Assembly: GCF_004366075.1 (NCBI RefSeq)
Contig: NZ_SODU01000002.1
Location: forward strand, 822,647 to 886,646
Source: Kribbella pratensis
Lineage (GTDB): Bacteria; Actinomycetota; Actinomycetes; Propionibacteriales; Kribbellaceae
DNA length: 64,000 bases
Direction of reading: 5' to 3'
In this document: positions 5,223 to 43,665 of the stretch, piece after piece
Layout: every line of letters begins with the position of its first letter
Position numbering within the stretch: position 1 is the stretch's first letter
Made by a program: the position numbers and the translations under genes
Notes under the pieces: model-generated
What the model saw: the letters and a program-made list of their open reading frames with translations, nothing else
The model's database searches: none
Told to the model about the DNA's origin: nothing

Positions 5223-5313
5223 GGTGGCGTGTCCGAGCGGCCGAAGGAGCGCGCCTCGAAAGCGCGTGACGGGCAACCCCCGTCCGAGGGTTCAAATCCC
5301 TCCGCCACCGCCA
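5223..5313 (+). tRNA. tRNA-Ser (anticodon CGA), CCA encoded
   Basis: The acceptor stem GGTGGCG pairs with CGCCACC (5303-5309), followed by discriminator G and an encoded CCA (5311-5313). The anticodon stem CGCGC/GCGCG encloses the loop CTCGAAA, giving anticodon CGA. The long variable arm characteristic of serine tRNA is present, and the T loop TTCAAAT is intact. It reads UCG codons. The last 17 bases are repeated 101 bp downstream. Confidence 0.96.
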
Positions 5314-38777: not shown

Positions 38778-40048
38778 GTGAGACGTGGAGTGGGACTGAC
38801 CCTGCTGGCCGCAGCGCTCAGCGTTCTGGTCAGCAGTTGTGGCAACGGGGTGATCGACAAGAGCACCGACGGGGTGCCGCCGGCCGAGGCGACCGGGACC
38901 CTGCGGGTGCTGGTCCCGTCGTTCCCGCCCAGCACCAAGGGCCGGGAGGCGTTCCAGAAGGTCGTCGACGACTTCCACAAGACCTATCCGAAGATGAAGG
39001 TCGAGCCGGACTTCGCGACGTACAAGAACCTCAACGAGAAGATGTCCACCTCGATCGCGGCCGGAATCCCGTACGACGTGATGGTCACCGGCGTCGGCTG
39101 GGTGCAGCCGTTCGCCTCGAAGAACATCTTCGAGGACCTCGGCAAGTACGGCGTGACGCCCGACGTCATCAAGGAGAAGAGCACTCCCGCGCTGATCCCG
39201 GCAGTGACGTACGACAAGAAGCTGTACGCGTACCCGCTGGTCGCGGACGCCCGCGCCGTCGCGCTCCGCAAGAGCGCCTTCCGCGAGGCCGGTCTCGACC
39301 CGGACAAGCCGCCGACGTCGCTGGCCGACATCAAGGTCGCCGCCGAGAAGCTCACCAAGCGGGACAAGAACGGCAACATCACCCGCAGCGGCTTCGACCT
39401 AGCCTCCGCGACCGGCTTCCGGCAGTCGTTCACCACCTTCCTGGCCGCAACCGGTACGCCGCTGTACGTCGGCGGCGAGCCGAACTTCGACAACAAGGCC
39501 GGCCTGGACACCCTGCTGTGGATCAAGTCGATGATCAACAACGTCCAGCCGTACGGCCAGACGAACGCCGCTCAGCAGCCTCTCGTGCTCACTGGTGAGG
39601 CCGCGATGGGGATCGTCAACGGCGGCGTGGACTGCTCGGCCGACGGCATCGGGCAGAAGAACTGCGACGACCTGAAGTTCTTCCGCTTCAACAGCGGCAA
39701 GGAGATCGAGTACGTCGGCGGCGACCTGGCGTCGATCGGGTCGCGCAGCCGGCACAAGGACGCGGCCTGGTCGTTCATCCAGTCCATGACCAAGCCGACG
39801 AGCCTGGATCTGATCGCCAAGCTGAACAAGAAGGTCCCGGCGTACAAGGACGCGAGCAACTCGCCGCAGGCGAAGTCGAACCCGTTGAGCCAGTTCGTCG
39901 CCGACGGCCTGGTCTACGCGGTCAACGAGAACGAAGTGCCGTCCAACTGGCTCGAGATGCGCGGCAACTTCGACATCCAGCTCACCCAGGCGGTCCTTGG
40001 ACAGAAGGATCCCGCCAAGGTGCTGCACAACCTGGCAGGACAGTCCCG

Positions 40049-40052
<4 letters not shown>
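38778..40052 (+). CDS. Sugar ABC importer, solute-binding lipoprotein
   Basis: 424 aa. Lipoprotein signal: hydrophobic TLLAAALSVLVSSC with C21 as lipidated cysteine. The mature part is a family 1 extracellular solute-binding protein: TGTLRVLVPSFPPSTKGREAF, NEKMSTSIAAGIPYDVMVTG, YAYPLVADARAVALRKSAF, NGKNITR-like acidic loops, and a WSFIQSMTKPTSLDLIAKL hinge. The ligand is probably an oligosaccharide. The stop overlaps the next start by four bases. Outer face of the membrane. Confidence 0.92.
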
Positions 40053-40979
<927 letters not shown>

Positions 40980-40987
<8 letters not shown>

Positions 40988-41882
40988 CGTTTCGTTGCCG
41001 GCGGCGGCCGCGGCCAAGCCGTCCGTACTCCGGCCCGGCCGGATCCTGCTGTACGTCGTCCTCACGGTCGGCGCGATCCTGATGATCACGCCGTTCGTGT
41101 GGATGCTGCTGACCGCGTTCAAGAGCAACCTGGAGATCGCGAAGTTCGGGTGGCTGCCGTCGGAGCTGCGCTGGCGGAACTTCGTCGAGGCGATGCAGAC
41201 CGCGCCGTTCCTCACGTACTTCCGCAACAGCCTGTTCATCGCGGTCGGCGAGACCGCGTTCACGCTGGCGGTCTGTACGACGGCCGGCTACGCGCTGGCG
41301 AAGCTGCCGATCCGCGGCGGCAAGACGCTGCTGAACTACTTCATCGTGCTGCTGCTGGTGCCGTTCCAGATCATCCTGGTGCCGCTGTTCCTGATCGTGA
41401 AGTCGATCCCGCTGTTCGGCGGCAACAACATCCTCGGGCACGGCGGGATCGGCTGGCTGAACTCGTGGTGGGGCCTGATCATCCCGCTCGGCGCGGCGCC
41501 CTTGTTCACGTTCCTGGCGCGGCAGTTCTACGTCTCGCTGCCGGACCAGCTGGCGCAGGCGGCGCGGGTCGACGGGCTCGGCGAGTTCGGGATCTTCTGG
41601 CGGATCATGACCCCGCTGATCAAGCCGGCGTTGATCACGATCGCGGTCTTCCAGATCGAGGCGGCCTGGAACGGGTTCCTCTGGCCGCTGATGATCACCA
41701 CGTCGGACGACCTGCGGCCGCTGCAGCTCGGGCTGGCGATCTTCTCCCAGAACCCTGCGGAGATCCAGTGGCCGTACCTGATGGCCGGTACGGCGCTCGC
41801 GACGCTGCCGATGATCGTGCTGTTCGTGTTCGCCCAGAAGCGGTTCGTCGAAGGAATGGCGAACGTGGGGATCAAGGGCTAG
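40980..41882 (+). CDS. Sugar ABC importer, permease (MalG-like)
   Basis: 300 aa with six membrane segments (first: ILLYVVLTVGAILMITPFVWMLL). The EAA loop is AQAARVDGLGEFGIFWRIMTPLIKP. ATG 40974 is an alternative start adding two residues; 40980 has AAGG at better spacing. It ends the operon: a strong hairpin follows and no glycoside hydrolase is encoded, so the sugar cannot be named from context. Confidence 0.93.
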
Positions 41883-42132: not shown

Positions 42133-42666
42133 TCAGTGCATATGGCTGTGGACGACGTACCGGACGATCGGCTCGAGGTCCGTCGTACCGAGGAGTTCCA
42201 GGGCGTTGGTGGCGCGGAGCGTGGCGAGGCCGTGGATGTTGGTCCACAGGGCGGTGGCGCGGAGGCCGGCGTCGTCGGGGTGGATCCGGGCGACCAGGTC
42301 GACGAAGTTCTGGAACAGCGGGAGCGAGGTCGCGCGGAGGTTGCCGCCGGAGCCGGCCAGTAGGTCGTGGCGGAAGATCAGGTCGAACATGCCGGGGCGT
42401 TCGGCGGCGAACTCCAGGTAGTTCTTGGCAGCCGCCACCAATTGTTCTTCGGGTGCTCCGCCGCTCGTCTCGAGCCGGGCGGCGAGATCCTGCAGTCCGG
42501 TGGCGGCGATCGCGGCCAGCAGCGCGCCGTGGGTGGGGAAGTAGCGTCGCGGTGCGCCGTGCGAGACGCCTGTACGGCGGGCGATCGCGCGCAGCGTGAG
42601 GTCGGCGAGGCCGTCCTCCTCGAGGAGTTCGACCCCGGCCTGGACGAGCCGGTCGGGCAGTGCCAC
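42133..42666 (-). CDS. TetR-family regulator
   Basis: 177 aa. HTH at about residues 10-52: VQAGVELLEEDGLADLTLRA, ARRTGVSHGAPRRYFPTHGALLAAI. The ligand-binding half has AAERPGMFDLIFRHDLL and LWTNIHGLATLRATNALELL, the WHG-type pattern. The GTG at 42666 is chosen because CAGGAG lies about 10 bases upstream and the TetR fold starts there. It is divergent from the leader and the F420-reductase/hemerythrin gene, its probable target. Confidence 0.88.
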   Translation of the reverse strand: MALPDRLVQAGVELLEEDGLADLTLRAIARRTGVSHGAPRRYFPTHGALLAAIAATGLQDLAARLETSGGAPEEQLVAAAKNYLEFAAERPGMFDLIFRHDLLAGSGGNLRATSLPLFQNFVDLVARIHPDDAGLRATALWTNIHGLATLRATNALELLGTTDLEPIVRYVVHSHMH

Positions 42667-42668
42667 GT

Positions 42669-42713
42669 AGACATTGTCTCCTGTTTGGGCTGACCCTGCG
42701 GTCCGGGTACGAT
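42669..42713 (+). promoter_or_regulatory. Palindrome and promoter for the leader ORF and fusion gene
   Basis: AGACA-T-TGTCT (42669-42679) is a palindrome next to the TetR start. TTGGGC (42685-42690), a 17-base spacer and TACGAT (42708-42713) put transcription start at about 42720-42721, exactly the GTG of the 18-codon ORF. The palindrome lies just upstream of the -35, within reach of the divergent TetR protein. Confidence 0.5.
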
Positions 42714-42720
42714 CTCCGGC

Positions 42721-42777
42721 GTGACTGCCGGGTCGGCCTTGAGCCATTCACGAGTTGGGTTCCCGGCTGCGCGCTGA
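42721..42777 (+). CDS. Predicted leaderless 18-aa leader peptide
   Basis: GTG 42721 begins at the predicted transcription start and runs 18 codons (VTAGSALSHSRVGFPAAR) to TGA 42775-42777. It is in the same frame as the downstream gene, which reopens after the TGA. It lacks the RRHVDLC-like motif of cysteine leader peptides. It could be a regulatory leader, or the remnant of a longer N-terminus cut by a nonsense codon. Too short to judge by codon use. Confidence 0.4.
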   Translation: MTAGSALSHSRVGFPAAR

Positions 42778-42799
42778 GCGCCGCGCGGGCCCCGCCGCC

Positions 42800-42848
42800 C
42801 GCTTCTCTCTGTCTGCAAAACCCTTTTTCACGACACCAGAGAGAAGCG
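42800..42848 (+). promoter_or_regulatory. RNA hairpin that would bury the ribosome site of the fusion gene
   Basis: CGCTTCTCTCTG (42800-42811) pairs perfectly with CAGAGAGAAGCG (42837-42848) across a 25-base loop. The 3' arm contains AGAGAGAAG, the only purine-rich ribosome site in front of the coding region at 42853. When folded, translation should be blocked; some event must open the stem. This looks like a translational switch. Confidence 0.6.
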
Positions 42849-42852
42849 AATC

Positions 42853-43665
42853 CTGAACGATTTCACTGCACAACTCATTGCGGAGTTCAAGGCGAACGAC
42901 GGGCGCGTCGGCGGGCCTTTCGAGAACTCCAGGTTGTTGCTCCTGACAACCACCGGCGCGCGGACCGGGCAACCGCGCACCGCGATCCTCGGGTACTACC
43001 CGGACGGTGACCGCGTCCTCGTCGTCGGCTCGGCCGGTGGCAGTCCGAAGCACCCGGACTGGTACCACAACCTGCTCGCGAATCCGGAGGTCGGCGTCGA
43101 CCTCGGGCTCTTCGACTATCGAGCAACGGCAGTCGTACTGCGTGGCACCGAGCGGGACGAGGTCTTCGCCCGACTCGTCGAGGCCGATCCGGGGTGGGGC
43201 GAGTACCAGAAGCAGACGACCCGGACCATTCCGGTCGTGGCGCTGGTCCAGCAACCGGGACCGCCTGCTGCCCGCGGGTCTCTTGCTGAGATGTTGAAGA
43301 CCATCCACTCCGCGTTCCGGCGGGAACTGGCCTTGATTCGGCATGAGATCGCGACCTCCGGGACGCTGGGCGCGCAACTCCGCATCAACTGCCTGACCGT
43401 CTGCCAGGGCCTGCACTACCACCACACCGGCGAGTCGACCGGGTTGTTCCCGGCCCTGGTCGAGCAGCACCCGGAGCTGACCGACGTCATCGCCGTACTG
43501 CAGAAGGAACACGACCAGATCGCAGTACTGCTCGCTGAGCTCGAGCAGCTGGTCGATGCAGACGTCCTGGACCAGGTGGACGAGCTGATCGCTCAGCTCA
43601 ACGCCCACCTGGACCGCGAAGAGGCGGCACTGCTGCCTTATCTAGAGGGGCCTCTGCGCCAGTAG
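42853..43665 (+). CDS. Deazaflavin (F420)-dependent reductase fused to a hemerythrin-like domain
   Basis: 270 aa from the CTG at 42853. Residues about 1-135 are a Ddn-like F420-dependent nitroreductase (FKANDGRVGGPFENSR, LLLLTTTGARTGQPRT, PKHPDWYHNLLANPEVGVDL). Residues about 140-265 are a hemerythrin-like four-helix domain with possible iron ligands in GLHYHHTGESTGLFP, QKEHDQIA and AHLDREEAALLP. The family N-terminus (NDF..QLIAEFKANDG) requires a start at or before 42853. There is no ATG, GTG or TTG in frame between the TGA at 42775 and TTG 42934, so CTG (with AGAGAGAAG before it) is likely. A redox or oxygen/NO-responsive role is inference. Confidence 0.8.
   Translation: MNDFTAQLIAEFKANDGRVGGPFENSRLLLLTTTGARTGQPRTAILGYYPDGDRVLVVGSAGGSPKHPDWYHNLLANPEVGVDLGLFDYRATAVVLRGTERDEVFARLVEADPGWGEYQKQTTRTIPVVALVQQPGPPAARGSLAEMLKTIHSAFRRELALIRHEIATSGTLGAQLRINCLTVCQGLHYHHTGESTGLFPALVEQHPELTDVIAVLQKEHDQIAVLLAELEQLVDADVLDQVDELIAQLNAHLDREEAALLPYLEGPLRQ

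Follow-up and report, generated by a model that had tools for sequence, protein, structure and literature searches.

A conserved leaderless reading frame with overlapping RNA helices, resembling a ribosome-position attenuator, precedes an F420H2-dependent quinone reductase-hemerythrin gene in Kribbella and other genes in actinomycetes

The window, meaning the whole stretch of 64,000 nucleotides that we analyzed, comes from the 8.4-Mb genome of Kribbella pratensis. It contains a gene for a two-domain protein that is preceded by a short leader open reading frame (ORF) and several potential RNA hairpins (Table 1). The original prediction placed a promoter, GTG 42721 and TGA of the leader ORF, two complementary arms, and CTG 42853 ahead of this gene, and we re-found all of them where it had put them. 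Its view of the product as an F420-reductase/hemerythrin fusion was borne out by Pfam, which recognized an F420H2_quin_red and a Hemerythrin domain. Three helices in Table 1 had not been part of that prediction: P1 in the ORF, P3 after its stop codon, and the alternative hairpin AT.

Table 1. Features of the leader and the following gene in the window, with the evidence for each
Feature	Position	Strand	Evidence or remark
Leader promoter, -35-like element TTGGGC	42685..42690	+	107 of 188 leaders have TTG here; spacing chosen as the best of four, no control
-10 box TACGAT, 7 nt upstream of the leader start, predicting a leaderless transcript	42708..42713	+	TAnnnT conservation
Leader ORF, GTG start, 18 codons plus TGA (42775-42777), peptide VTAGSALSHSRVGFPAAR	42721..42777	+	34 of 34 leader-bearing Kribbella orthologs
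P1 strand 1, GCCGGG	42727..42732	+	12 both-side-changed cells in P1, alignment A2
P2, small inner hairpin GGC...GCC (42735-42737 with 42743-42745)	42735..42745	+	GGC/GCC invariant in A2
P1 strand 2, CCCGGC, common to AT	42762..42767	+	Alignments
AT, alternative hairpin of P1 strand 2 and the post-stop 5' side of P3, around the stop codon; excludes P1 and P3	42762..42789	+	Minimum free energy fold of the 180-nt window leader
P3, GCGGGC-cccgcc-GCCCGC, terminator-like, 7 nt after TGA	42785..42802	+	Perfect-stem excess over shuffles
Anti-SD arm CGCTTCTCTCTG	42800..42811	+	Perfect complement of the SD arm
Pyrimidine/T tract after P3, overlapping the anti-SD arm	42803..42812	+	T excess over background
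SD arm CAGAGAGAAGCG, holding the purine-rich ribosome site	42837..42848	+	Perfect complement of the anti-SD arm
CTG-started F420H2-dependent quinone reductase-hemerythrin fusion, 270 aa	42853..43665	+	Pfam PF04075, E 1.9e-36; PF01814, E 3.5e-17

Between the leader promoter and a divergent TetR-family gene (Pfam TetR_N and TetR_C_33) lies a palindrome, AGACATTGTCT (42669-42679), which is perhaps a TetR operator. The palindrome is present in eight Kribbella loci and absent from other loci that keep the leader. TetR was rejected as the cause of the leader because the leader is retained in relatives whose upstream sequence is unlike that of the window. Upstream of the TetR gene, on the forward strand at 38778-41882, ORFs resemble by eye a solute-binding protein and two membrane permeases.

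We searched the protein against 38 Kribbella genomes and found the gene in 35, with a match confined to residues 8-114 in G036 and 58% identity in G031. The leader precedes the gene in 34 of these 35 genomes, and G005 has the gene without the leader. A covariance model trained on 61 leaders, four of them from Kribbella, gave one strong match (E of 1e-13 or better) per genome in 34 of the 38 genomes and no strong match in G005, G006, G016, or G030. The Kribbella leaders, which were located by a motif demanding A or G as the first base, have the consensus RTG ACT RCC GGG TCG GC... through TGA. Conservation of the 18-codon ORF among close relatives, proposed earlier as a check, was found in 34 of 34 leader-bearing orthologs, at a length of 18 or 19 codons. 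That the window leader shares its frame with the gene had been taken as a clue. As merely 14 of the 34 orthologs have both in the same frame, we regard this as coincidence.

Scanning public genomes with the pattern TGACTGCCGGGTCGGC, 15-33 free bases, and CCCGG yielded at least 118 loci, whose leaders have letters in common by construction. Although 15 to 33 bases were allowed, the spacing was 24, 27, or 30 nt in 116 of the 118 listed loci and 21 and 22 nt in the other two, and it was thus divisible by three in 117. At an E of ≤0.01, the covariance model matched 52 of 394 genomes of the class; strict filters lose weak matches. We took 54 of the 56 listed model matches as loci, leaving out weak ones in G407 and G408. 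Three of the 54 are non-leaders (L243, L245, and L246; weak and without an RTG leader), so the leader is present in at least 47 of the 394 genomes. The pattern scan, the covariance model, and gene homology combined gave at least 202 leaders, at least 191 of them distinct, all with 18-20 codons and TGA. Left out of these counts were L094 (a pattern match with 15 codons, a TAG end, and no known gene downstream), L169 (from an Acidobacteria metagenome-assembled genome, with a spacing of 22 and an internal stop), and L221 (an own-genome duplicate). A further exact leader match in the genome of the window (C1:900865) was rejected, as by eye it resembles a piece of a coding sequence and has a model E of only 0.012. 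Judged from these comparisons, the 18-codon GTG ORF is one copy of a leader family conserved in actinomycetes.

Downstream genes were classified by tblastn against six representatives, so other kinds of gene can show only as unclassified. The 118 listed pattern loci comprised 57 F420 reductase genes, one more distant relative, 38 VOC genes, 14 S1 genes, four unclassified loci, and four with too little sequence. The sequence was long enough at 114 of the listed loci, and at 110 of these the following gene is an F420H2-quinone reductase(-hemerythrin), a VOC, or a small S1-domain gene. Within the unclassified group, the product at L079 is S1-like by eye, and L094 and L169 were set aside. The 30 strong model loci were followed by F420 reductase (22), VOC (7), or S1 (1) genes. 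The 24 weak ones were followed by VOC (7), F420 (2), or S1 (2) genes, were too short (1), or remained unclassified (12); these twelve are the three non-leaders and nine loci with look-alike proteins, one of which, when tested, belonged to the dienelactone hydrolase family (E 1.3e-34). Pfam found Glyoxalase in two VOC representatives and no family in the third, and the S1 assignment had an E of 5.5e-07. A second leader subfamily (L229, L230, L232-L237, L239, and L242; mostly MTTGTA..RHTRIGDP...) stands before dienelactone hydrolase-like genes, with L236 being too short, and in several of its members P1 is ACCGGG/CCCGGT. By these assignments, the leader precedes a few stress- or detoxification-type genes in many actinomycetes.

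The two elements of the leader promoter are 17 bp apart. A sigma-70 promoter scan of the window did not list this promoter, and we therefore grade it as weak in sigma-70 terms. The position claimed for its -10 box is backed by conservation, with TAnnnT lying 6-8 nt before the RTG start in 188 of 191 distinct leaders. In the cited passage of a study of Streptomyces lividans, the distance from the -10 box to the transcription start averages 6.3 nt (PMC8079986).

Among the 191 distinct leaders, 133 start with GTG and 58 with ATG, a purine being also what is expected of a transcription start and, in Kribbella, what the search motif itself required. TGA ends all 191 leaders but only 88 of 130 downstream genes. 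By the original prediction, a sense codon at the TGA position of a relative would point to a nonsense mutation; none of the 191 leaders had one, and we rejected that idea. At the eighth codon before the stop, CGA accounts for 120 of 144 Arg codons, compared with 3.8% of Arg codons in downstream genes. The macrolide-type R-x-R sequence is a ribosome arrest motif. It was rejected as a universal sensor because codon -8 is other than Arg in 47 of the 191 leaders. The last two codons are free to vary. Leader codons had no synonymous excess: 11 of 50 changes were synonymous (14.0 expected) and 39 altered the amino acid. Thus, the peptide has no visible conservation beyond codons that are also fixed by RNA pairing, and translation rather than the peptide seems to be important, or else RNA pairing holds the letters. 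Measured against a ribosome-mediated attenuator, the ORF has a conserved frame, stop, and promoter position in 191 leaders, yet no synonymous excess. We infer from the former that it is translated.

Two alignments were used for the RNA. Alignment A1 holds 61 of the 118 listed pattern loci: the last 38 loci were excluded, the first 80 were reduced to 70 by removing near-identical and short sequences and L094, and nine with irregular post-stop parts were removed by hand. Alignment A2 holds 73 sequences found by gene homology or by the model, most near-identical ones having been removed. P1 is almost wholly fixed by construction in the pattern set. In A2, its first pair is A-U in nine leaders and unpaired in eight, its last pair is A-U in three and unpaired in one, and the next pair of P2 is changed on both sides in 11 of 73 and unpaired in 28. 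None of 500 shuffles attained the covariation score or the both-side cell count of P1 plus P2, but 110 had as many pairs changed on both sides and 488 as many pair types. Sliding P1 and P2 by +3 nt gave a covariation score of 0.100 versus 0.089, yet only 38.5% pairing. For AT, covariation was weak, with shuffles out of 500 attaining the paired percentage (5), the score (27), the both-side cells (72), the pair types (242), and the pairs with both-side changes (496).

Mean z scores against shuffles over the 191 leaders were -0.94 for P1, -1.29 for AT, and -0.90 for P3 (in Kribbella, -0.87 for P1 and -0.73 for AT), and all 30 shuffles were beaten by 40 leaders for AT, 22 for P3, and 5 for P1. A perfect P3 stem of at least 6 bp was found in 130 of 190 leaders, compared with 10.9% of shuffles. 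At least four T's occur in the next ten bases in 49% of 157 perfect-stem leaders, against a background of 4.2%; about half of the stem-bearing leaders have fewer than four. P3 shares CGC 42800-42802 with the stem formed by the anti-SD and SD arms (SD stem). As drawn from these alignments and folds, P1, AT, and P3 form three overlapping helices that resemble an attenuator, in which P3 would terminate transcription.

We calculated P3 probabilities for 157 perfect-stem leaders by folding them with a ribosome placed on the RNA, using textbook footprint lengths. The mean was 0.67 for free RNA, 0.65 with the ribosome at codon 2, 0.79 with its A site at the eighth-last codon, and 0.34 with the A site on the stop codon; P3 is thus disturbed most by a ribosome that lingers at UGA. 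Earlier stalls allow AT only partly, raising its probability from 0.28 in free RNA to 0.30-0.34. In TnaC-type arrest, a ribosome held at the stop codon could mask the RNA that follows. A TnaC-like pause at UGA that blocks P3, with UGA and the preceding PAxx as the sensor, would fit the drop to 0.34, the presence of UGA in 191 of 191 leaders, and the start of the stem 5-9 nt past the stop in 140 of 158 perfect-stem leaders. However, P1 strand 2 accounts for CCG at -4, the two final codons are variable, and unlike TnaC, the leader has no conserved peptide beyond the pairing-fixed codons and, in the window, no Trp. We consider such a pause unlikely, if the most serious competitor to a switch set by ribosome position along the leader.

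Constraint on the letters could also come from a structured RNA sensor, binding a ligand or a protein, whose 5' end is translated by accident and in which the ORF is secondary. Compensatory changes in P1 and the missing synonymous excess agree with this, as do letters outside P1 that are largely kept even in the non-pattern set (TGA at 2-4, GGC, and GCC). An RNA sensor does not call for a spacing in multiples of three (117 of 118 listed pattern loci), an in-frame TGA in 191 leaders, or RTG at the expected transcription start, and Rfam had no match in window positions 42400-43000 up to an E of 1 nor in six other loci at the gathering threshold. We regard it as distinctly improbable.

The ribosome site of the gene was claimed to be hidden in a hairpin of perfectly complementary arms. 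This proved correct: the 12-nt arms, separated by 25 nt, are 100% complementary, and the CTG lies 4 nt beyond the second arm. The 91-nt RNA around this SD stem has a z score of -3.66, and 1 of 200 shuffles was as good. The window has seven sites with perfect inverted repeats of at least 12 bp whose loops do not exceed 30 nt, and five whole-window shuffles had none, so the SD stem is neither chance nor unique. The other six, at 5313, 16473, 22161, 35294, 41906, and 59459, are perhaps terminators.

Hiding of the ribosome site recurs in relatives, the mean probability of an unpaired site in Kribbella being 0.20 compared with 0.39 when the upstream part was shuffled, and lower in 29 of 34 leaders. 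Beyond shuffles, it was found before 39 of 49 VOC genes, 14 of 18 F420 genes outside the homology-found Kribbella set, and 9 of 10 dienelactone hydrolase genes (one of them truncated), with a weak 9 of 15 in the S1 group. Only sequences whose start and site could be recognized and whose start lay at most 230 nt past the stop were counted, and in Kribbella the longest purine run served as the site. The arms also co-change between species, as looked for in the stem-covariation check, with examples being CTTTCTCTG/CAGAGAAAG in L018 and TCTCTGC/GCAGAGA in L030. No comparable stem was obvious by eye in eight long-leader species (L019, L022, L024, L026, L031, L032, L071, and L072). Before the start, these Kribbella have an extra GC-rich stretch with a recurring TTCGTCATGCCC or close variants, and the shorter leaders L025 and L029 have a stretch similar to the TTCGTCATGCCC region.

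A hidden ribosome site, as a translational attenuator would have, is therefore present in silico. The further claim that translation of the leader opens the SD stem did not survive folding: in the window, the probability of an unpaired site was 0.04 in all four states, including free RNA, the ribosome at CGA codon 11, and the ribosome at the stop codon. The stem is local, lies downstream of the assumed footprint, and in these folds is indifferent to the leader ribosome. In the folding model, the hairpin that could respond is P3, just after TGA. Purely translational attenuation of the erm/toiL type, in which the ribosome site is released when a ribosome stalls on the leader, has a described precedent in toiL (PMC12121999, in the passages cited) and draws on the excess of site hiding over shuffles, which is least clear in the S1 group. 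It is less probable still than an RNA sensor, given the site paired in every state folded for the window and the pairing of leader codons -10 to -5 with post-stop nucleotides 30-60, which was no better than in shuffled sequence. We give almost no credence to a decayed or nonsense-interrupted N-terminal extension with a chance hairpin, which the single frame of the window leader and gene might suggest but which is refuted by the counts (same frame in 14 of 34, TGA intact in all 191) and by recurrence of the leader before unrelated genes.

The CTG start withstood comparison as well. As had been stated, no in-frame start lies between TGA 42775 and residue 28, the first ATG, GTG, or TTG being a TTG at codon 28. 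CTG without an ATG one codon before is retained in 22 of 34 leader-bearing orthologs and also in G005. The other 12 comprise ten with ATG one codon before, one with ATG at the position itself, and the G031 ortholog (L072), whose expected start position is occupied by none of ATG, GTG, TTG, or CTG. Between the upstream stop and the CTG, 14 of the 22 have no ATG, GTG, or TTG, and eight have one at least 42 nt upstream. The codon before CTG is ATC, ACC, or GTC, so initiation at ATC cannot explain all 22. Initiation at CUG has been the subject of a structural study, in the part cited here (PMC11497404).

Directly visible in the sequences are the conservation of the frame, the stop, and the place of the promoter, compensatory change in P1, P3 with its T tract, sequestration of the ribosome site, the CTG, and the gene associations. 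Taken together, we favor, at a probability of roughly 60%, a conserved actinomycete cis-regulatory leader that acts as a ribosome-position attenuator, with a Kribbella variant that adds an SD lock and CTG. Translation of the leaderless 18-20-codon ORF would begin at the very 5' end of the transcript, and the position of the ribosome, the likely switch, would select P1 inside the ORF, AT across the stop codon, or P3 after it. P3 with the T-rich tract would be a terminator or barrier, and AT formation or masking by the ribosome would block it. In many Kribbella, the ribosome site is hidden by a separate hairpin, which together with the CTG start may form a second lock limiting translation of the gene. 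Our guess is that the signal is slowed translation. More tentatively, and with the odds somewhat against it, this one leaderless upstream ORF (uORF) element, anchored at the start of its transcripts, may sense the state of the ribosome throughout actinomycetes, a role so far unrecognized, and control a small set of protective genes that have no other relation to each other (F420-dependent reductases with hemerythrin, VOC, dienelactone hydrolases, and S1-domain genes), an evolutionarily maintained CUG start serving Kribbella as an additional low-leak lock.

One shared control element ties together genes of obscure role, so the signal sensed would reveal the purpose of the enzymes. The family also offers nearly 200 natural leaders whose ~57 bases serve leaderless initiation, RNA folding, and coding at once, as well as 22 genomes in which a CUG start is seemingly kept. 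Searches of open PubMed Central full text for leader letter strings (MTAGSA, VTAGSA, and core motifs) returned no paper relevant by title. The leader family is real, conserved, and, by that search and the Rfam stretches, undescribed, and it probably works most like a ribosome attenuator.

Several known systems are comparable as far as the cited passages describe them. Streptomyces trpL, leuL, and ilvL are, as here, leaderless leader peptides followed by hairpins (PMC8079986). Unlike them, our leaders have no stretch of codons for a single amino acid, and none of the classified downstream genes is biosynthetic, so these marks of an amino-acid attenuator are missing. Escherichia coli toiL-topAI likewise combines a uORF with a hidden ribosome site (PMC12121999), but the toiL hairpin joins the two, whereas the SD stem here lies downstream of the ORF and is unresponsive in silico. 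The actinomycete wblC/whiB7 and ARE-ABCF genes are controlled by uORF-mediated transcription attenuation (PMC12421871 and PMC7157823). Much as proposed for the leader here, theirs pair a short uORF with a terminator/antiterminator, and ribosome inhibition is the signal there. The WblC/WhiB7 box is given as GAAAWY, 3 nt upstream of the -35 element (PMC7157823). At that place, non-Kribbella leaders have an A/T-rich spot in 32 of 73 F420 loci (9 in the control) and 17 of 48 VOC loci (1 in the control), and Kribbella leaders in 5 of 36 (2 in the control), with exact GAAAWY at exact spacing in 2 of 73 F420 and 0 of 48 VOC loci, which is at most suggestive of a WblC box before leader promoters. By description, the wblC and ARE-ABCF systems are set apart by other uORFs where these are named (tiaA and are5sc) and by other target genes. 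The Kribbella-type ORF differs from both in being leaderless by promoter position and in overlapping the first helix.
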